Source of the DNA: Natronorubrum thiooxidans
GTDB taxonomy: Archaea > Halobacteriota > Halobacteria > Halobacteriales > Natrialbaceae
Reading direction: 5' to 3'
Assembly: GCF_900156475.1 (NCBI RefSeq)
Contig: NZ_FTNR01000013.1
Location: 1 to 64,000, forward strand
Length of the DNA: 64,000 bases
The first letter of the stretch is position 1. Every line of letters begins with the position of its first letter. The notes under the pieces are model-generated. The model did no database searches. It was given only the letters and a program-made list of their open reading frames with translations, and had not been told where the DNA came from. Made by a program: the position numbers and the translations under genes. Below, piece after piece: positions 29,361 to 37,544 of the stretch.

Positions 29361-29651
29361 TCAGTTCTTTTTGATGAGGATCTGTCCGGTACTCTGGACG
29401 AGTACAGTATATCCATAGTACGAAAAGGTGATACACCCTGCCTTGCTTACAGGTCTGCCGTCGGATTCAAACGCCGTATCGAGCGCTTTGGGGTTGATAC
29501 TGTCACGCAGCGGGGGCAGGTTTTGAGACTCCTCGTTCTCGTACTCTGCGATCGCTTGAACGATTTGATTACTCGCCAACTCTTTCTCGGCCCAATCGTG
29601 GTGTAAGTGGTGAGTCGTTTGATCAGCCGTCGAGTCTGTGGCACTACTCAT
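29361..29651 (-). CDS. HalOD1 output-domain protein
   Basis: 96 residues from MSSATDSTADQTTHH. The small haloarchaeal output domain is recognisable: IVQAIAEYENEESQNLPPL, then INPKALDTAF and ITFSYYGYTVLVQSTGQILI. These proteins are found free-standing or fused to sensory modules and are thought to act in signalling; the molecular role is unknown. It lies just upstream of the AOR-type gene on the same strand with a 24-bp gap, so the two are probably co-transcribed. An ATG seven codons upstream is an alternative start. Confidence 0.8.
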   Translation of the reverse strand: MSSATDSTADQTTHHLHHDWAEKELASNQIVQAIAEYENEESQNLPPLRDSINPKALDTAFESDGRPVSKAGCITFSYYGYTVLVQSTGQILIKKN

Positions 29652-29964
29652 ACGCCAACCGTTGACACGCATTCAGATGTCGTTTGATGAGTAATATTCC
29701 TTGTTTTTAAATACCGTTATATGAGGGGAGTTTGCGAGTCGACCCACTATCACCAGACTATCAGAACTGGAGACATTGCTCTAGTTTGTTATTCTCGATT
29801 TCTGTCCGTTCCTCGTCGATAGTTAACAAATCACACTGACTACGCAGAGGGATTGAGCAGACTACTCAGTAGTGAACCGAGCAACTATTTTAATTGCATA
29901 TCGTAAGGCAGTTTAAACCTCCAACCGATCGACTAACACAATTTTCGGTCGGATATAAACACAA
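29652..29964. other. 313-bp gap, promoter region only
   Basis: No gene or clear repeat. TTTTTAAATACCGTTATATG near 29703 is AT-rich and could hold the leftward promoter of the HalOD1/AOR unit. Confidence 0.4.
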
Positions 29965-30636
29965 TCAGTTGTTTATTTTTTCGAGGGTTTCGTCGTCCAC
30001 TACCGTTCCAGAGATCAGGTTCTGCATTCCACGTCGAAGTCGTCCACTCATCGCGGTCGATGAGATTCCTACCTCAGCGGCAACGTCATCCAGAGACATT
30101 TCTCGAGGCTCACAGAAATACCCACACCTGTACGCGGTTGTGAGTGCCTCGAGCTGTTCGTCAGTCAATCCAAACGAGGGATTCATTTCTGACCCCGTGT
30201 TTCCATACACCTCAATTATATTGAAATCCATGTCGTGCTTTTTTGTATACTCCCAGACCCCGTTGAGCGCTTCTCGGTCGGGAAGTTGCAACTGGACGAA
30301 CCAGCCACGGCACTTGCTTTCTGCACACGACATAAACCCGTTGACACTCGTGACTATCGGACTCAGTAATATCGTTTCTTCCGAATGCTCGATATAATAA
30401 ATCCGCATTTCAGCGCTCGCATCAACGAGTTCGTACCGGTGTACAGTCGGGTCCTGTTCGAGAAACCCTTCTAATTCATCGAAGTCGTCGTATTCGATTC
30501 GAAACGGGAAGCGGTCGGAATCCGGGTCAGTATTTGCCTGCGTCGTTACTTCGATACGAATCTCCTCTGCACTTCGTAGCGTCGGCACTAGGGCAAGCTC
30601 GTCGTGTTCGATGTAGGCTTTTACTGTTATCGACAT
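29965..30636 (-). CDS. Bat-like HTH_10 transcriptional regulator
   Basis: 223 residues. The N-terminal part (about 1-150) is the bacterio-opsin-activator-type ligand domain seen in many haloarchaeal regulators (VKAYIEHDELALVPTLRS, then TVHRYELVDASAEMRIYYI). The C-terminal HTH_10 lies at about 157-210: LTDEQLEALTTAYRCGYF, then MSLDDVAAEVGISSTAMSGR and LRRGMQNLI. Such proteins control diverse metabolic genes. The nearest leftward targets are the HalOD1/AOR genes downstream; this link is inferred. Divergent from rdfA with 211 bp between starts. Confidence 0.9.
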   Translation of the reverse strand: MSITVKAYIEHDELALVPTLRSAEEIRIEVTTQANTDPDSDRFPFRIEYDDFDELEGFLEQDPTVHRYELVDASAEMRIYYIEHSEETILLSPIVTSVNGFMSCAESKCRGWFVQLQLPDREALNGVWEYTKKHDMDFNIIEVYGNTGSEMNPSFGLTDEQLEALTTAYRCGYFCEPREMSLDDVAAEVGISSTAMSGRLRRGMQNLISGTVVDDETLEKINN

Positions 30637-30847: not shown

Positions 30848-31483
30848 ATGTCGAACGAAACCGGAAACTGTAAGATTGACCGCATCTCCCAGAAATGGGA
30901 TCTCGAGAGTCTCGACGAGCGGCTTCTCGAACGCCGAGAGGCAGGTGACAGCCTCCGGGATCTTGAAACATACTACAACCAACAGGTTCTCGAGGCAGCA
31001 ATGACGGCGGCAGGGATGGAACCTCTGGAGGGGGAAGTCGAGAACCTGTATCAGCTTCTGACTGGTGATAATGTCGGTGCCGGAACGAAAGTCGAAGCGC
31101 AGTCTCGGCTCAAGCGAAACGATGTCGACCCAGAGACGATCACAAGTGATTTTGTAAGCTACCAGACTGTTCGAACACATCTAAACGACTGCTTGAACGT
31201 CGAGACGAAACGAGACACGGGAATCGACGAAACCGGCGCAAAAAATATTGTTTTCAAATTACTGTCTCGAACCGAGTCGATCACCAAGCGAACGATCGAA
31301 CGACTCCGCTCCAGCGACCGGTTGGCGATCGGTGAACCGGAGGTGACACTGAGTCTCCGCGTCGCGTGCAAAGACTGTGGTGAAGAATACACTTTTACTC
31401 GACTCGTCGAGCGTGGCCGGTGTTCGTGTTCTCACGAGGACGTCTCGACCGATCAAACCAGCGACGAGTATAGCAACGACTGA
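30848..31483 (+). CDS. rdfA: Rod-determining factor RdfA-family protein
   Basis: 211 residues from the ATG at 30848 (MSNETGNCKIDRISQKWDL). The body follows the haloarchaeal RdfA pattern: DERLLERREAGDSLRDLETY, NQQVLEAAMTAAG, EVENLYQLLTGDNVGAG and DFVSYQTVRTHL. A C-terminal zinc-ribbon-like part has CKDCGEEYTFTRLVERGRCSC. RdfA takes part in rod/disk shape control in Haloferax; the mechanism is unclear. In many haloarchaeal genomes it neighbours an archaea-specific SMC-related gene, as here. No signal or membrane segment, so cytoplasmic. Family confidence is high; whether this paralogue controls shape is not known. Confidence 0.85.
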   Translation: MSNETGNCKIDRISQKWDLESLDERLLERREAGDSLRDLETYYNQQVLEAAMTAAGMEPLEGEVENLYQLLTGDNVGAGTKVEAQSRLKRNDVDPETITSDFVSYQTVRTHLNDCLNVETKRDTGIDETGAKNIVFKLLSRTESITKRTIERLRSSDRLAIGEPEVTLSLRVACKDCGEEYTFTRLVERGRCSCSHEDVSTDQTSDEYSND

Positions 31484-31872
31484 TAGGGATTCTCGTCGAC
31501 GGTCATAGATTTGCGGCACGGAAACCGAGCCACAGCCACTGCACAGCTGGGCAGAGACACCCGGCTGGCGACGAGAGTCCCCCTGAAACGATGGACACAC
31601 TGCTCGTAGAGCTGTCGTGAGATACGGTGTGTAGTGACTGCCAGTGGCTACGACAGTGCCACAACCACATAGCGGCTATCGATCCGAACTCGAGAGCGAG
31701 AGCATGCTCCCGATTCGCTCAGTCACAAGATCGGAAATTTTCGAACGATCCCGAGACACTCACTCTGAGCGTATCGATCGTGCAGGCAAACCAAATTGGG
31801 TACAACACAAGGTTGAAGACGCTAGACCGGTGAATAACGTACCAACAACCAGCGCTAGTCGCTCAGCTACTC
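31484..31872. other. 389-bp gap between rdfA and the SMC-related gene
   Basis: No coding frame is convincing. It contains a copy of the dispersed repeat described at 31584-31660. The distance argues for a separate promoter for the downstream gene. Confidence 0.45.
31584..31660 (+). repeat. Dispersed intergenic repeat, copy
   Basis: It starts TGAAACGATGGACACAC (identical at 43751-43767), continues through GAGCTGTCGTGAGATACGG and ends TGACTGCCAGTGGCTACGAC. The whole stretch aligns collinearly with 63384-63455 at roughly three matches in four, judged by eye. Confidence 0.55.
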
Positions 31873-33810
31873 ATGTCGATAAACAGTCCAGATCCCAAGC
31901 CGAGAAACGAGTTCGAGGAGTTGCACATCAGCGTCCAGAACATCGGTGGAATTTCAGCGGGCGAGATGGCGATTTCACCAGGAGTGACGCTGTTGTCGGG
32001 AGAAAATGCGTCCAACAAGTCGTCGTTCCTTCGCGGACTGGCCGCCGTTCTCGGCGGTCCTGTTCCGCCAATTAAAAGCGACGCCAACAACGGAACGGTA
32101 TCGCTTCAAACGGCCGACGAAGAGTACGTTCTCAACGTCTCGAATAGAGACGGTGATCCTGTTGTCACCGACGCGAATCAAGCGTCCGATCAGAGAGACC
32201 TCTGTGAACTGTTCGTCGCACTCGGTGAACGGAATCCGATCCGACGGCGTATCCTCACAGACGGGGATCTATACGAACTGTTGATGCGACCCGTCGACAC
32301 CGCAGAGATCGAAGCCGAAATCGAACGGCTCAGCACACGGAAAGACGAACTCGATGATCGGCTCGCAGAGCTCGATCGAATGGAAGACCGTCTCCCGACG
32401 CTTCGAACGCGGGCAAACACTGTCCAAGACAAAATCGATGGGATCGAGACACAGCTCCGTGAGAAACGCGATGAGATCGACAGGCGTGAAACGGAGACAG
32501 AAGAACACGACGTGTTCGACGATCTCAAAGAGAAACGGTCGGAGCATGAGACCGTACGTAATCGAATCCAGACGCAGCGAGATGCCGTCCGCTCGCTCGA
32601 GAACGAACGAGAGGACGTCCTCGAGCAGCGTAAACAGCTCGGGCCGGCCGATTCGTCGGCAGATGTCGACTCGATCGAAACCGAGATCGAGCAACTACAC
32701 CACCAGAAACAGCAGGTGACGACAACAATCAACGCACTGAGTCCGATCGTCGAAATGAACAACCAGCTGTTAGACGATCAGCAGGAGATTCCAGCGGAAA
32801 TGAAAGCGGACGAGGTCGTTGCTGAACTCGATCCAACGTCGCGGTCGATTACGTGCTGGACATGTGGCAACACCGTCGAACGGGAAGAGATTGCCGAACA
32901 GGTCCGTGTCGTCCAGGAGATTCTACAGGAAAAACGACACCAACGAGAGACGATCACCGATCGCATCGAGTCGCTCGAGGAGGACAAACGTCAACTCGAG
33001 CGCCAACGTGACGAGCGCGAACGGCTCGAACAAAAGGAGCACTCGATCGAAGCCGAAATCGAACGTCGCGAGGTGCAACTGTCCGACCTTCGGGAACAGC
33101 AGTCGTCGCTCGACGACGAGATCCAATCGCTTCAGGCGGACGCCGAGGCGATCGACGGTCGAGACGACGAGTTGATCGACTGTTACAACGAAGTGAGCAG
33201 CCTCGAGTACGAACGCGGGCAGCTCGAAAGCGAACTGAACGAGCTCGAGCAGGAACTCGAGCGACTCGAAGCCGAACTCGCGAAACGCGACGAGCTCGAA
33301 GCGGAGCGTGACTCGGTCGCGACCAACCTCCAAGAGCAGCGAGATCGAATCGAGACGCTCGAACGCGACCTCGTCACGACGTTCAACGAATCGATGCAGC
33401 AAGTCCTCGACAGGTTAGCGTACGAGAACATCGAGCGCGTCTGGATCGAACGGCTCACAGGAAGCGACGGCTCCCCGACTGAGACTGACTTCGAACTCCA
33501 CGTCGTTCGCTCGAGTGAGAGTGGAACCGCGTACGAAGATACCATCGAGAGCCTGAGCAAGAGCGAACGCGAGGTGATCGGACTTGTGGTCGCCTTTGCG
33601 GGCTATCTTGTCCACGACGTCGAAAGCGAGTTGCCAGTCATCGTCATCGACGCCATCGAGATGCTCGATGCGGATCGAATTCGCGGACTGCTTGACTACT
33701 TCAATCGACATGCAGCGCACGTCGTCGCCGCAGTCCTGCCAGAAGAGGCGGCAGAGCTCGACGAGACGTATCCGACGGTTTCGACGTCCTCGTTCACCGT
33801 TGTATCATAG
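31873..33810 (+). CDS. Archaea-specific SMC-related protein
   Basis: 645 residues with SMC/Rad50 layout. The N-terminal ATPase lobe has LLSGENASNKSSFLRGL at about 41-56. A coiled coil runs from about 140 to 310 and again from about 345 to 510. The hinge region carries a zinc-hook CWTC at 328-331, and the C-terminal lobe LSKSEREVIGLV near 561 and ELPVIVIDAIEMLDADRI near 586. The P-loop lacks the usual Gly before Lys (NKS instead of GKS), the signature is LSKSE rather than LSGGE, and Walker B has D-A where D-E is usual. Such changes occur in this family. It probably works with RdfA upstream; DNA or envelope role unknown. Confidence 0.88.
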   Translation: MSINSPDPKPRNEFEELHISVQNIGGISAGEMAISPGVTLLSGENASNKSSFLRGLAAVLGGPVPPIKSDANNGTVSLQTADEEYVLNVSNRDGDPVVTDANQASDQRDLCELFVALGERNPIRRRILTDGDLYELLMRPVDTAEIEAEIERLSTRKDELDDRLAELDRMEDRLPTLRTRANTVQDKIDGIETQLREKRDEIDRRETETEEHDVFDDLKEKRSEHETVRNRIQTQRDAVRSLENEREDVLEQRKQLGPADSSADVDSIETEIEQLHHQKQQVTTTINALSPIVEMNNQLLDDQQEIPAEMKADEVVAELDPTSRSITCWTCGNTVEREEIAEQVRVVQEILQEKRHQRETITDRIESLEEDKRQLERQRDERERLEQKEHSIEAEIERREVQLSDLREQQSSLDDEIQSLQADAEAIDGRDDELIDCYNEVSSLEYERGQLESELNELEQELERLEAELAKRDELEAERDSVATNLQEQRDRIETLERDLVTTFNESMQQVLDRLAYENIERVWIERLTGSDGSPTETDFELHVVRSSESGTAYEDTIESLSKSEREVIGLVVAFAGYLVHDVESELPVIVIDAIEMLDADRIRGLLDYFNRHAAHVVAAVLPEEAAELDETYPTVSTSSFTVVS

Positions 33811-33832: not shown

Positions 33833-36265
33833 TCAATGGCGATCCGTTGCTCGAGCGGCCCGTATCGCGGCGGCATTTTCGGGAACATCGTGAACCCGAA
33901 TGATATCTGCGCCCCGGTCGGCTGCCAGCGTCGTTACCGCAAGCGTTGGGGGCAATCGTTCACCAGACTGACAGCCAATGTGTCCGAACATCGATTTCCG
34001 GGAGTGACCGACCATGACCGGACACGCCAGCGCCTGTAACTCCTTGAGTCTCGCGACGAGTTCGAACGACTCGGCCGGCTCCGTCCCGAATCCGAGTCCG
34101 GGATCGATGATAATCTGCTCGCGGTCGAGTCCAGCACGTTCCGCGAGCAAGACCGTTTCCGAGAGGTCCTGAATCGTATCTTCGACGACGTCGTCGTAGA
34201 CGACAGTTCGGTCGGGATCGACCGGTGTCTCGAGGCTGTGCATGATGACGAGCGATGCGTCGTGGTCGGCGACAACGAACCGCATCTCGGGATCCTCGAG
34301 CCCGGAGACGTCGTTGACGATGTCGGCGCCTGCCTCGAGTGCTGCGTCGGCGACAGCTGCCTTTCGGGTGTCGATCGAAATCGGAACATCCAGATCTGCA
34401 ATCCGTTCGACGACTGGGACGACACGATCGATCTCCTCCGCGACCGAGACCGGGTCGGCGCCAGGACGGGTACTCTCTCCACCAACGTCGATGATATCCG
34501 CACCGGAAGCGACCATGTCACGAGCATGCTGGACTGCTGTCGGGACCCGATCGTACTCGCCGCCATCGGAGAAGCTGTCCGGCGTCACGTTCAGGACACC
34601 CATCAGTGCGGGCGTTTGATCCCACGGATGTCGGTCCGGCTCGTCGTCAGCGTCGATGGCACGGCGGAGCTGACTCGAAACGTGGGCGAGACCGAGTTCG
34701 TCGTCAGCCAGTGTGGCGATCAGCGTTTGCAACTGCGATAACGGTCCGGAAAGCACTGCTGTGACGCGTCGACCGGCAGTCTCGGTCTCCGAGAGGACAC
34801 ATGTTCCACCGATCGACTCGAACGTCTGCTTGATCTGGTCGGCCTGTGCATCACGCAAATACGTCTTGATCGTCCGATGAACCGTCTCTTTGGCGGTGTT
34901 CTCGAGCGGTGTCCGTTCTACGTCTGCGTTCGTAAGCACAGCCTGTGACCGGTCTGTCGTAATCGTCTGCTTTGGGATCTGGAGTCGCGTCCACCGGTCG
35001 CGTGCTTCGGCGACTACGTACAACGAACCGGTGACGAGGACGCAATCGTTTTCGTCGGCCGCCGAGAGCGCTCGCTCGGTCGCTTCGAGGACCGAGCCGG
35101 CGTGATCGATCGTTTCTGCATGGTCCCCGAACGCCGTGGCGAGCGTCTTGGTGTCTTCAGCGCGTGAAACGGTCGGCTCACAGAGATGAAGGACATCGAT
35201 TGACGGCAGCGTCGTCGCCATTTGCCGGTGGGCTTTCTCTTGCATCGCACCGAAAACGAGGTGGAGATCATCGAACGCGTATCGATCGACGAGTGCAGCG
35301 AGAGTCGCACAGGCACCCGGGTTGTGCGCCCCGTCGAGGATCGTCAGTGGCTGCGTCGACATGATTTCGAATCGCCCCGGCCAGTGAGCATTGCGGAGCC
35401 CCCGTTCGATCGTCTCCGGGGCGACATCGGCGACCTGTCTGGCCAGCGTTGCCGCGACGCCGGCGTTCATCGCCTGATGGTGTCCCAGAAGCGGGAGCGT
35501 CGTCTCGAGAGACCAGCCTGAGGCCGTAATCGAGACGGCGCTTTCGACCTGTGAGGCCAGTCCGTTCTCGCTAACGACCACGTCTTTGTCGTCGCCACCA
35601 ACGCTGATTACGTCCGTCTCCGATCGAATTGCCTCGAGCGCTGCACCGTCCGAACCGGTCACCAGCGGTGTGTCGGTCGGGGCGACCTGGGCCTTGTCGC
35701 GGGCGATTTCCTCAATGGTGTCGCCAAGGATATCAGTGTGCTCGAGTGTGACGCTCGTTACCGCACTGGCGACCGGGTCGACGACGCTCGTCGCGTCGTA
35801 TCGGCCACCGATGCCAACCTCAAGGATGGCAACGTCAACGTTTTCAGCGGCGAAGTGGTGGAACGCAAGCGTCGTGAGAACTTCGAAGTACGTCGGCGTG
35901 TCGTCTTCCTTTCGGAGCCTGTCGATACAGCCGTCGATTTCCTCTACAAACGCCCGAAGCCGACGTTTCGGGATCTTCCGACCGTTGACTTGGATTCGTT
36001 CCCGCAGGCTGTTCAGATCGGGCGACGTATAGAGGCCGACGTCGAGTCCCGCATCGCGAAGGATTCGCTCGAGCATACACGCAGTGCTTCCCTTACCGTT
36101 CGATCCCGCGATCTGGATACAGTCGAGATCCTCGTGGGGTCGGTCGATCTGTGAGAGTAACGTGGCCGTCGTTTCCGTGCCGAGTTTCGGGCGACACCGC
36201 CGTAACGACTCGAGGTAGTCGACCGAATCGTGATACTCCATACCAAACGTGCCTTCGGGCGTCAT
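33833..36265 (-). CDS. folP: Bifunctional folylpolyglutamate/dihydrofolate synthase - dihydropteroate synthase (FolC-FolP)
   Basis: About 810 residues joining two folate enzymes. The N-terminal FolC/Mur-ligase part has IQIAGSNGKGSTACMLER near residue 55, GIGGRYDATSVVDP, LEHTDILGD and ILDGAHNPGACATLAAL. The C-terminal dihydropteroate synthase from about 555 has MGVLNVTPDSFSDGGEYD, IIDVGGESTRPGADPVS, IVNDVSGLEDPEM and IIDPGLGFG, all substrate-binding blocks. It makes and glutamylates folate in the cytoplasm. The start is uncertain: ATG at 36265, or 36241 (MEYHDSVDYLESL). Divergent from alaX with under 70 bp between starts. It supplies the THF cofactor needed by the C1 genes to the right. Confidence 0.92.
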   Translation of the reverse strand: MTPEGTFGMEYHDSVDYLESLRRCRPKLGTETTATLLSQIDRPHEDLDCIQIAGSNGKGSTACMLERILRDAGLDVGLYTSPDLNSLRERIQVNGRKIPKRRLRAFVEEIDGCIDRLRKEDDTPTYFEVLTTLAFHHFAAENVDVAILEVGIGGRYDATSVVDPVASAVTSVTLEHTDILGDTIEEIARDKAQVAPTDTPLVTGSDGAALEAIRSETDVISVGGDDKDVVVSENGLASQVESAVSITASGWSLETTLPLLGHHQAMNAGVAATLARQVADVAPETIERGLRNAHWPGRFEIMSTQPLTILDGAHNPGACATLAALVDRYAFDDLHLVFGAMQEKAHRQMATTLPSIDVLHLCEPTVSRAEDTKTLATAFGDHAETIDHAGSVLEATERALSAADENDCVLVTGSLYVVAEARDRWTRLQIPKQTITTDRSQAVLTNADVERTPLENTAKETVHRTIKTYLRDAQADQIKQTFESIGGTCVLSETETAGRRVTAVLSGPLSQLQTLIATLADDELGLAHVSSQLRRAIDADDEPDRHPWDQTPALMGVLNVTPDSFSDGGEYDRVPTAVQHARDMVASGADIIDVGGESTRPGADPVSVAEEIDRVVPVVERIADLDVPISIDTRKAAVADAALEAGADIVNDVSGLEDPEMRFVVADHDASLVIMHSLETPVDPDRTVVYDDVVEDTIQDLSETVLLAERAGLDREQIIIDPGLGFGTEPAESFELVARLKELQALACPVMVGHSRKSMFGHIGCQSGERLPPTLAVTTLAADRGADIIRVHDVPENAAAIRAARATDRH

Positions 36266-36301
36266 TATTAATGTGTCGCCGCCGGCGGGAGTCCCAGACG
36301 G

Positions 36302-36309
36302 TTTATATT
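36302..36309 (+). promoter_or_regulatory. TATA box of alaX
   Basis: TTTATATT centred about 28 bp before the ATG at 36333, the usual spacing for a leaderless haloarchaeal mRNA. No ribosome-binding sequence lies in between, and this supports the start chosen for the gene. Confidence 0.6.
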
Positions 36310-36332
36310 GGTGTGTGTCGACACGTGTGACA

Positions 36333-37544
36333 ATGGTGTCCGAACTGAGAGACAACCGTGCGACAGTGGAACCGTACGTGACGGATTTCGAAACAGCGGT
36401 GCGATCGATCGACGGCCGCGATGTCCGGCTCGAGGAGACGTATTTCTACGCCGAGGGAGGCGGGCAACCGGCCGATCGTGGGACACTGGGCGGCATCGGT
36501 GTCGTCGACGTCCAGCCCCAGAATGGCGAGACCGTTCACACGCTGGCGACGACGCCGGAGTTCGAGGTGGGGGAGTCCGTCGTCGGATCAATCGACGACG
36601 AGTTCCGGACGTACTGTATGCGAGCACACACTGCCAGTCACGCTCTGTACGGGGCAGTTCGAGAGCTATTCGACGATCACGGCTACGGCGGCTTCGATAT
36701 CGGCCCGGAGACGGTTCGTCTCGATCTCGAGATCGAGCACGGTCCGGACGAGGTGAACGCATTCACCCTCGAGCGACTGGTCAACGAAATCGTCTGGGAG
36801 TCCAGAGACGTCTCTTGGCGGGAGATGGACGCGACAGCGGCGCGAGAGCATGACGAGATTGTTTTCAATCGCACTGGTGGGAACGACGCGTCCGGGGCAG
36901 TTCGGATCGTCGAGATCGAGGACTGGGACAGCGCCGCCTGTGGCGGAACCCACGTACGGAACACGTGTGAGATCGGCCCCGTCAGAGTACTCGAGGTATC
37001 GAATCCGGGTGCGGGTCTCGTTCGCGTCGAGTACGCAGTCGGCCCCACTGCGATTCGGGCACGGGTCGACGAGACGAGAGCCGCAACCCGCGCGGCGCAA
37101 ACACTGGATACGAACGTCGAAGGGCTTCCCGAACGGGCGACTGATATGGTCGAAACCAACGCTTCGCTCGAAGCGGCGGTCGACTCCCTGCGCGACCAAC
37201 TGCTCTCCGAACGCCTCGAGTCGCTGGCCGACGACGCCGTCTCGAAGAGCGGTAACGAGTGGGTTGTCGGCGAACTCGATATCGACGGGGTCGGGCCCAA
37301 CGACGTGTCCGAACGCGTCCGATCGCTCGCTGGTGATGTCGGCGACGTGGTCGCGCTGACCGGCAGAAACGGACGGTTGTTCGTGGTCGTCGGCACGACG
37401 GGCGAACCGGACGCGAGCGAGGTCATCGACGACATCACGGCAACGTTCGGTGGCGGTGGCGGCGGCGGGCCGACGTTCGCACAGGCTGGGGGCCTCGAGG
37501 ACGAGCCGTCTGCCATCGTCGACTACCTTCGAACGGAACTGTAG
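36333..37544 (+). CDS. alaX: AlaX-type alanyl-tRNA editing protein with DHHA1 domain
   Basis: 403 residues. The AlaRS-like editing domain has FYAEGGGQPADRGTLGG (41-53), metal ligands His99 and His103 in AHTASHALYG, and Cys203/His207 in AACGGTHVRNTCEIGPV. The DHHA1-like C-terminal domain ends with ATFGGGGGGGPTFAQAGG. AlaX proteins hydrolyse Ser- or Gly-tRNA(Ala) in trans. The length, with a coiled linker (ERATDMVETNASLEAAVDSL) and DHHA1 domain, is the long AlaX type; there is no aminoacylation domain. Divergent from folCP. In a segment full of serine/glycine metabolism, proofreading against serine or glycine misuse is a fitting but inferred role. Confidence 0.9.
   Translation: MVSELRDNRATVEPYVTDFETAVRSIDGRDVRLEETYFYAEGGGQPADRGTLGGIGVVDVQPQNGETVHTLATTPEFEVGESVVGSIDDEFRTYCMRAHTASHALYGAVRELFDDHGYGGFDIGPETVRLDLEIEHGPDEVNAFTLERLVNEIVWESRDVSWREMDATAAREHDEIVFNRTGGNDASGAVRIVEIEDWDSAACGGTHVRNTCEIGPVRVLEVSNPGAGLVRVEYAVGPTAIRARVDETRAATRAAQTLDTNVEGLPERATDMVETNASLEAAVDSLRDQLLSERLESLADDAVSKSGNEWVVGELDIDGVGPNDVSERVRSLAGDVGDVVALTGRNGRLFVVVGTTGEPDASEVIDDITATFGGGGGGGPTFAQAGGLEDEPSAIVDYLRTEL

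Follow-up and report, generated by a model that had tools for sequence, protein, structure and literature searches.

An RdfA-paired SMC-related protein of Natronorubrum thiooxidans and the apparently rebuilt ATPase site of its haloarchaeal family

The stretch of DNA studied here, 64,000 nucleotides of Natronorubrum thiooxidans (contig NZ_FTNR01000013.1, positions 1 to 64,000 of the forward strand; hereafter “the window”), carries two neighbouring genes that, judged by their sequences, appear to be a further copy of the published haloarchaeal cell-shape gene pair, i.e. the unit formed by RdfA (rod-determining factor A) and an archaea-specific SMC-related protein (ASRP, or Sph). The ATPase site of this ASRP, like that of its haloarchaeal relatives, looks rebuilt rather than decayed. 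We give roughly even chances to the reading that the protein is an SMC-like clamp, paired with RdfA, which binds nucleotide and hydrolyses it poorly or not at all. The features of the pair are as follows.

30848..31483, + strand: rdfA, rod-determining factor A family protein, 211 aa (PF21811)
31367..31429, + strand: C-terminal cysteine cluster of RdfA, C174, C177, C192 and C194 (alignments A2 and A5)
31873..33810, + strand: ASRP (Sph), 645 aa (NF045487)
31999..32025, + strand: Walker A, GENASNKSS, with Asn for the second Gly of GxxxxGK[ST] and the Lys kept (sequence, census)
32302..32775, + strand: first coiled-coil arm, residues 144-301 (AlphaFold2 helices, mostly high pLDDT, the model's per-residue confidence)
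32854..32865, + strand: zinc hook CWTC, residues 328-331 (sequence, alignment A1)
32881..33417, + strand: second coiled-coil arm, residues 337-515 (AlphaFold2 helices, mostly high pLDDT)
33553..33567, + strand: signature LSKSE of ATP-binding cassette (ABC) proteins, residues 561-565 (sequence, census)
33637..33669, + strand: Walker B and D-loop, VIVIDAIEMLD (sequence, census)

RdfA matched PF21811 along the entire profile (positions 1-195 of 195) with 206.3 bits and an E value of 5.3e-61, the cut-off being 27, and the ASRP matched NF045487 over positions 1-593 of 593 with 574.6 bits and an E value of 2.5e-172 against a curated cut-off of 300. The two genes are adjacent and on the same strand, with about 390 bases between them. 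The sequence-only reading of this region had listed a P-loop GENASNKS, a signature LSKSE and a Walker B motif ending in D-A, and all three are exact in the sequence. The Walker B Asp is kept, the Glu that should follow it is replaced by Ala, another Glu stands at +3, and the D-loop Asp is kept. As GENASNKS and D-A take the place of the canonical GxxxxGK[ST] and of the Glu after the Walker B Asp, the protein was not classed as a canonical SMC/Rad50 ATPase. Its membership in NF045487 stands, since other ASRPs carry the same motif changes, and Walker A, the signature and Walker B are all recognisable in it despite the Gly-to-Asn change and the absent Glu. The exchange of the second P-loop Gly for Asn is mild, as Asn tolerates the same backbone turn. 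The altered motifs are not due to chance, because 13 distinct orthologues (L084-L094, L113 and L114; 49-76% identity) keep NKSS, CWTC, LSKSE and D-A, and the Rad50 of the same genome, serving as a control, has the canonical GVNGSGKST, LSGGE and LILDEPTVFLD.

The zinc hook and long coiled coils named in the same reading are also present, with AlphaFold2 arms on both sides of the hook. Both hook cysteines are invariant in alignment A1, and CWTC itself occurs in 134/152 ASRPs. In the AlphaFold2 model, which was built from 4 sequences, the arms are the confident part, and most head residues have a pLDDT below 50. The ASRP sequence alone found no match among PDB sequences at 0.001; the ASRP profile matched solved Rad50 heads (best E 6.6e-7). 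The cysteine cluster of RdfA resembles a zinc ribbon and is predicted to bind metal. The RdfA model (mean pLDDT 65.6) has helices between residues 9 and 115 with the remainder mostly of low confidence, and this low-confidence model found no PDB match at E<=0.001. A second RdfA-ASRP pair, with the commoner motifs GRNATNRTS, LSESE and DSLEAID, is present on contig C30 of the same genome, and the reading frames are open, with no internal stops.

The census of the family started from 200 hits spanning both ends of the ASRP hidden Markov model, of which 192 were unique and full-length and were aligned (186 haloarchaeal and 6 outgroup ASRPs); outgroup rows L117, L122-L124 and L126-L129 were left out. 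Glu after the Walker B Asp was found in 0/186 haloarchaeal ASRPs and in 6/6 outgroup copies, which also have G-K in the P-loop (6/6). In the largest haloarchaeal class, NR (n=152), the P-loop Lys is Arg in every copy, preceded by Asn in 145, Gly in 6 and His in 1, and Walker B reads D-S-x-E; the Ser at +1, the Glu at +3, the signature Ser and the D-loop Asp are each present in 152/152. Class NK (n=23), which includes the window copy, has N-K in the P-loop and D-A-x-E throughout (23/23). Class WQGK (n=11) retains G-K, but the residue next to the Walker B Asp is Gly in 8 copies, Arg in 2 and Ser in 1, and position +3 is Gly or Ser, so that all 11 have neither the +1 nor the +3 Glu; the D-loop Asp is absent in 10/11.

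With its Lys kept, the window P-loop is less altered than that of the commonest class. The notion that the motif changes are peculiar to the window gene was rejected, as the Glu is absent in 186/186; the loss is complete among the aligned haloarchaeal ASRPs, though not unique to haloarchaea. Among the rows left out of the census, L122 and L126 are D-E, L127-L129 resemble Rad50, L117 is D-D, and L123 and L124 are D-N, with L117, L123 and L124 being non-haloarchaeal ASRPs without RdfA. The P-loops of L123 (1947-3923) and L124 (1980-3968), both from family f15 genomes, have GK together with Walker B D-N. Random decay of the site was also rejected, since the residues that replace the canonical ones are themselves invariant in the 152 class NR copies. 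This invariance indicates strong purifying selection rather than drift, and it is the reason why the site looks rebuilt. As for virus-borne relatives, one viral_contigs scan with alignment A1 gave 56 pattern matches, none of which was confirmed as a relative.

RdfA and ASRP were surveyed together in 145 haloarchaeal genomes, at E<=1e-50 for ASRP and E<=1e-8 for RdfA. ASRP was found in 123/145 genomes and RdfA in 125/145, such that 123 genomes have both, 2 have RdfA only, 0 have ASRP only and 20 have neither (Fisher exact p 1.3e-22); two of the ASRP-negative genomes were assigned by their absence from the positive rows. The genomes with RdfA but no ASRP at E<=1e-50 are G072 and G111, in which RdfA is possibly an orphan. 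The sequence-only reading had called for a survey of adjacency, and RdfA proved to lie within the flank (about 1.5-6 kb) of 165/186 haloarchaeal ASRPs (132/152 for class NR, 22/23 for NK and 11/11 for WQGK). For 159 neighbouring pairs, the RdfA and ASRP identity matrices correlated with rho 0.80 (0/500 permutations as high), although vertical descent alone would likewise raise this correlation; rho was 0.75 within class NR and 0.95 within class NK. The nearest RdfA shares the class of its ASRP in 158/159 pairs. Co-occurrence, adjacency and co-divergence thus indicate that the pair travels as a unit.

The ASRP-RdfA neighbourhood appears to extend beyond the haloarchaea. When 30 non-haloarchaeal genomes were searched for RdfA at a threshold of E<=0.1, 10 had a match. 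The four top-scoring matches (52.7, 35.2, 25.3 and 21.9 bits, of which the lower two miss the Pfam cut-off of 27) adjoin ASRP genes, all in genome family f13, and the six remaining matches are weak (E 0.008-0.08). The f13 loci include those of two Methanosarcinaceae, Methanohalobium evestigatum pMETEV01 and Methanomethylovorans hollandica pMETHO01, and the other two share the family code. The M. hollandica RdfA (26.5 bits, just below the Pfam cut-off) is labelled hypothetical by NCBI and that of M. evestigatum is labelled RdfA. All four ASRPs beside these RdfA genes, which are the nearest relatives to have an RdfA neighbour, have GKT, D-E and Thr at +3. In 4/4 loci, RdfA is followed by a winged-helix gene.

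L116 4620-5138, + strand: winged-helix gene, adjoins methanogen RdfA
L118 922-1443, - strand: winged-helix gene, adjoins methanogen RdfA
L119 765-1316, - strand: winged-helix gene, adjoins methanogen RdfA
L121 623-1147, - strand: winged-helix gene, adjoins methanogen RdfA

The winged-helix protein has 161 and 165 aa where annotated, and the frames in the other two loci have 175 and 184 aa; its profile matched no haloarchaeal open reading frame among the loci compared. An analogy with SMC-kleisin-KITE complexes, with RdfA kleisin-like and the third gene encoding a tandem winged helix of KITE type, gained no support, the best PDB match of the winged-helix profile being a MarR-type regulator.

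A tree of 62 rows (30 NR, 15 NK, 7 WQGK and 10 others) was built with the motif columns removed. The 52 haloarchaeal rows stand on one side of a branch with support 98/94, and the haloarchaeal rows together with the four f13 rows on one side of a branch with support 100/98. The tree program warned of long branches meeting in the outgroup and of deviating composition in the outgroup rows and some others; therefore, the root and the placing of the methanogens are less sure than these supports suggest. The window subclade (support 95/100) spans several families with near-identical motifs. The window clade is placed at an open fork in the final tree; an earlier tree had it as sister to class NR with support 67, and its Lys may have been either kept or regained. 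A single Lys clade was rejected by the approximately unbiased test (p 0.008), the group having been named after the earlier tree was seen. Two Lys copies, L194 (1953-3914) and L205 (1941-3914), lie within the Arg class and again have Ala at +1 (DALEPID). In each of the two changes on the tree, Lys is accompanied by Ala and Arg by Ser; two such events are too few for statistical weight (sign test p 0.5).

What such pairs do has been described in Haloferax volcanii. RdfA was named and Sph3 described there (PMC10869688), and deletion of either rdfA or sph3 left only disks, with no rods and no motility. The same paper reported adjacency in 24 genomes for 42/54 RdfA and 42/50 SMC-like genes. The partnership with RdfA and its tie to cell form, both proposed in the sequence-only reading, thus agree with published adjacency and with loss of rods in both deletions (PMC10869688). 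A 2026 paper (PMC13286277) states that Sph3 deletion gives rods, where PMC10869688 reports only disks. Each of the four H. volcanii Sph proteins has a part in gene conversion, sph2 and sph4 are not deletable together, sph2 and sph3 deletions have opposite effects on shape, and Sph overproduction gives very long rods (PMC11276520). These shape and gene-conversion phenotypes belong to the H. volcanii paralogues and are matched to the window pair by description (PMC10869688, PMC11276520).

In the mechanism that we propose, the ASRP is an SMC/Rad50-like half whose ABC-type head is joined by an antiparallel coiled coil to a tip formed by the zinc hook, so that two such subunits can meet at the hook and probably at the heads as well. 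The heads would most likely still bind nucleotide, because the window copy retains Lys and Ser in the P-loop, Asp in both Walker B and the D-loop, and Ser in the signature. Hydrolysis would be slow or absent because the Walker B +1 Glu is missing, and with Ala in the catalytic Glu position the protein would act as an ATP-stabilised clamp. The strict conservation of the replacements suggests that the site is in use. RdfA, its dedicated partner as judged by their pairing, would control clamp loading, release or location; in the simplest model, the clamp would close on nucleotide and RdfA, presumably in contact with the ASRP, would help to open it. In H. volcanii, the outputs are cell shape and, where the Sph paralogues are concerned, conversion of genes between copies of the chromosome.

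Several observations weigh against such a poorly hydrolysing clamp: the DndD proteins of three haloarchaea are D-T, and the DndD homologue SpfD, likened here by family membership, has reported ATPase activity (PMC4611135; also the introduction of PMC8569181), so that loss of the +1 Glu is no proof of a dead enzyme; the L117, L123 and L124 copies make Glu loss neither restricted to haloarchaea nor tied to RdfA; the loss of the D-loop Asp in class WQGK means that what is inferred for the window class may fail for other classes; and the Glu that is invariant at +3 in the NR and NK classes might serve as a relocated base, with the AlphaFold2 head (pLDDT mostly <50) too poor to place it.

The main rival, possible though on balance doubtful, is that the ASRP is an active ATPase with a rebuilt site, in which the +3 Glu or a DndD-like arrangement hydrolyses ATP, with Arg in place of the P-loop Lys in most paralogues, and that the protein works with RdfA as a conventional SMC-like motor or gate. 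The D-T of DndD, with its ATPase homologue (PMC4611135), supports this possibility, as do the presence of the +3 Glu in 152/152 NR and 23/23 NK copies, where the four D-E f13 copies have Thr, and the retention of the other nucleotide-contact motifs in both classes. However, the 11 WQGK copies, a type that includes Halobacterium salinarum Sph1, have neither Glu. Moreover, in ABC ATPases generally, the residue at Walker B +3 does not reach the gamma phosphate.

We consider it improbable that the ASRP is a pure scaffold, i.e. a coiled-coil cytoskeletal element that binds no nucleotide and in which the conserved residues hold the head fold or dimer. The sequence-only reading had moved from impaired hydrolysis to a structural scaffold; comparison across the family supports the first, but the second exceeds the evidence, because the window's class and the commonest one retain Asp in Walker B and the D-loop and Ser in the signature, so that binding of nucleotide is probably still important, and because D-T DndD has a homologue with reported ATPase activity. 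The replacement of the P-loop Lys by Arg in 152/186 haloarchaeal copies, the very long rods obtained with overproduced Sph (PMC11276520) and the filaments formed by SMC-domain coiled-coil proteins in Anabaena (told in PMC10869688) would suit a scaffold. Against it, the residues that usually contact Mg and phosphate are invariant, the window class keeps Lys, the joint switch of Lys/Arg with Ala/Ser (two events) fits a maintained pocket, and all four H. volcanii Sph proteins matter for gene conversion (PMC11276520). It is very unlikely that the window copy is a paralogue in the course of degeneration and loss: the second, typical pair on contig C30 and the location of the window type on plasmids in several named relatives would be in line with it, but the frames are open, the subclade extends over several families with near-identical motifs, and the gene neighbourhood is conserved.

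If the ASRP is a clamp that binds nucleotide with little or no hydrolysis, its history might be written as follows, a suggestion that we make tentatively and rate as rather unlikely in full: haloarchaea turned an ancestral ATP-hydrolysing ASRP-RdfA machine, still present in Methanosarcinaceae as ASRP-RdfA-winged helix, into hydrolysis-free SMC-like clamps; three rebuilt forms of the site arose (GK with D-G/R/S, NK with D-A and NR with D-S); and each paralogue retained its own RdfA, with cell shape and chromosome-copy equalisation as outputs. The usual picture of SMC-family proteins is that of ATP-driven machines. Should the haloarchaeal Sph family work with a site that binds ATP without turning it over, nature would have uncoupled SMC architecture from ATP hydrolysis, and this in proteins whose phenotypes in a tractable model archaeon concern shape, motility and recombination. 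With D-E in methanogens and three altered forms in haloarchaea, all beside RdfA relatives, the old assumption that Sph is a P-loop ATPase is directly testable.

The paper defining the ASRP family, which includes Sph and coalescin, calls Walker A and B present, and its available text has no remark on the altered residues (PMC9389158). The word “Walker” is absent from the main texts of PMC10869688 and PMC11276520. In the Sph/ASRP literature searched, as far as its available texts go, the substitutions are unremarked; older Sph papers (Ruepp 1998, Herrmann 2002) may say more. As far as these searches show, it is new that the ATPase site appears rebuilt in a different way in each class of haloarchaeal ASRP.

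Upstream of rdfA in the window are two genes on the opposite strand.

29965..30636, - strand: HTH_10 (Bat-type) regulator, divergent from rdfA (PF04967, E 2.1e-15)
29361..29672, - strand: small HalOD1-domain protein (PF18545, E 2.6e-18)

The order AOR-HalOD1-HTH_10-RdfA-ASRP-folC/folP-AlaX (DHHA1) recurs in Natronolimnohabitans (L113), Haloterrigena salina (L115) and Haloterrigena turkmenica pHTUR02 (L227). Halogranum (L114) has 5/7 of these genes, with HalOD1 inverted; a search of the stretch compared found neither AOR nor AlaX. Relatives of HalOD1 and HTH_10 are still near the pair in the rearranged loci L092 and L093, HTH_10 being cut by the locus edge there, and neither was found in the short flanks examined of seven loci (L095-L101). 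The two neighbours are thus conserved in part of the window's subclade. Relative to the literature searched, two further points are new: the window's own subclade, in which HTH_10 and HalOD1 genes accompany the pair, and the D-E form of the ASRP beside RdfA in Methanosarcinaceae. Downstream, FolC and dihydropteroate synthase matches share one 840-aa frame (33833-36355), i.e. a fused folate enzyme.

In H. volcanii, RdfA-Sph3 (HVO_2174-HVO_2175) is likewise an rdfA and SMC-like gene pair, and the HalOD1 protein DdfA (HVO_2176) is encoded beside it and is rarely clustered elsewhere, according to the published description (PMC10869688). The window differs by the HTH_10 gene between the HalOD1 gene and rdfA; its HalOD1 gene is one gene away from rdfA, and its likeness to DdfA consists of the shared HalOD1 domain only. 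Three ASRPs on plasmids of other Haloferax species have 25-37% identity to the window ASRP and belong to other classes.

The ASRP of H. turkmenica pHTUR02 (HTUR_RS22890) is an orthologue of the window ASRP with 74% identity and the motifs GENASNKSS, LSKSE and DAVEMLD; the gap between rdfA and the ASRP gene is 204 bases there, compared with about 390 in the window, and in other respects the unit is identical. H. salinarum Sph1 and Sph2 (pNRC200) have rdfA upstream and lack the Walker B Glu. Sph1 keeps GK, has D-G, lacks the D-loop Asp and is 24% identical to the window ASRP; Sph2 is of the NR type (GRNATGRTS, D-S) and 36% identical. The ASRP and RdfA genes of M. evestigatum and M. hollandica are also adjacent, but differ from the window pair by GKT, D-E, the downstream RdfA and the winged-helix gene. 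With Rad50 and SMC proteins, the ASRP has the ABC head and coiled coil in common, and its zinc hook is as in Rad50; the canonical Rad50 of the same genome has an 894-aa frame, as opposed to 645 aa for the window ASRP. DndD, an SMC-like ATPase that also has no Glu after the Walker B Asp, is unlike the ASRP in its canonical P-loop (GGxNGAGKT) and in belonging to a DNA phosphorothioation system. Sulfolobus ClsN (coalescin), compared by description (PMC9389158), is of the same ASRP family and has a chromosome-compartment role in an organism without SMC.

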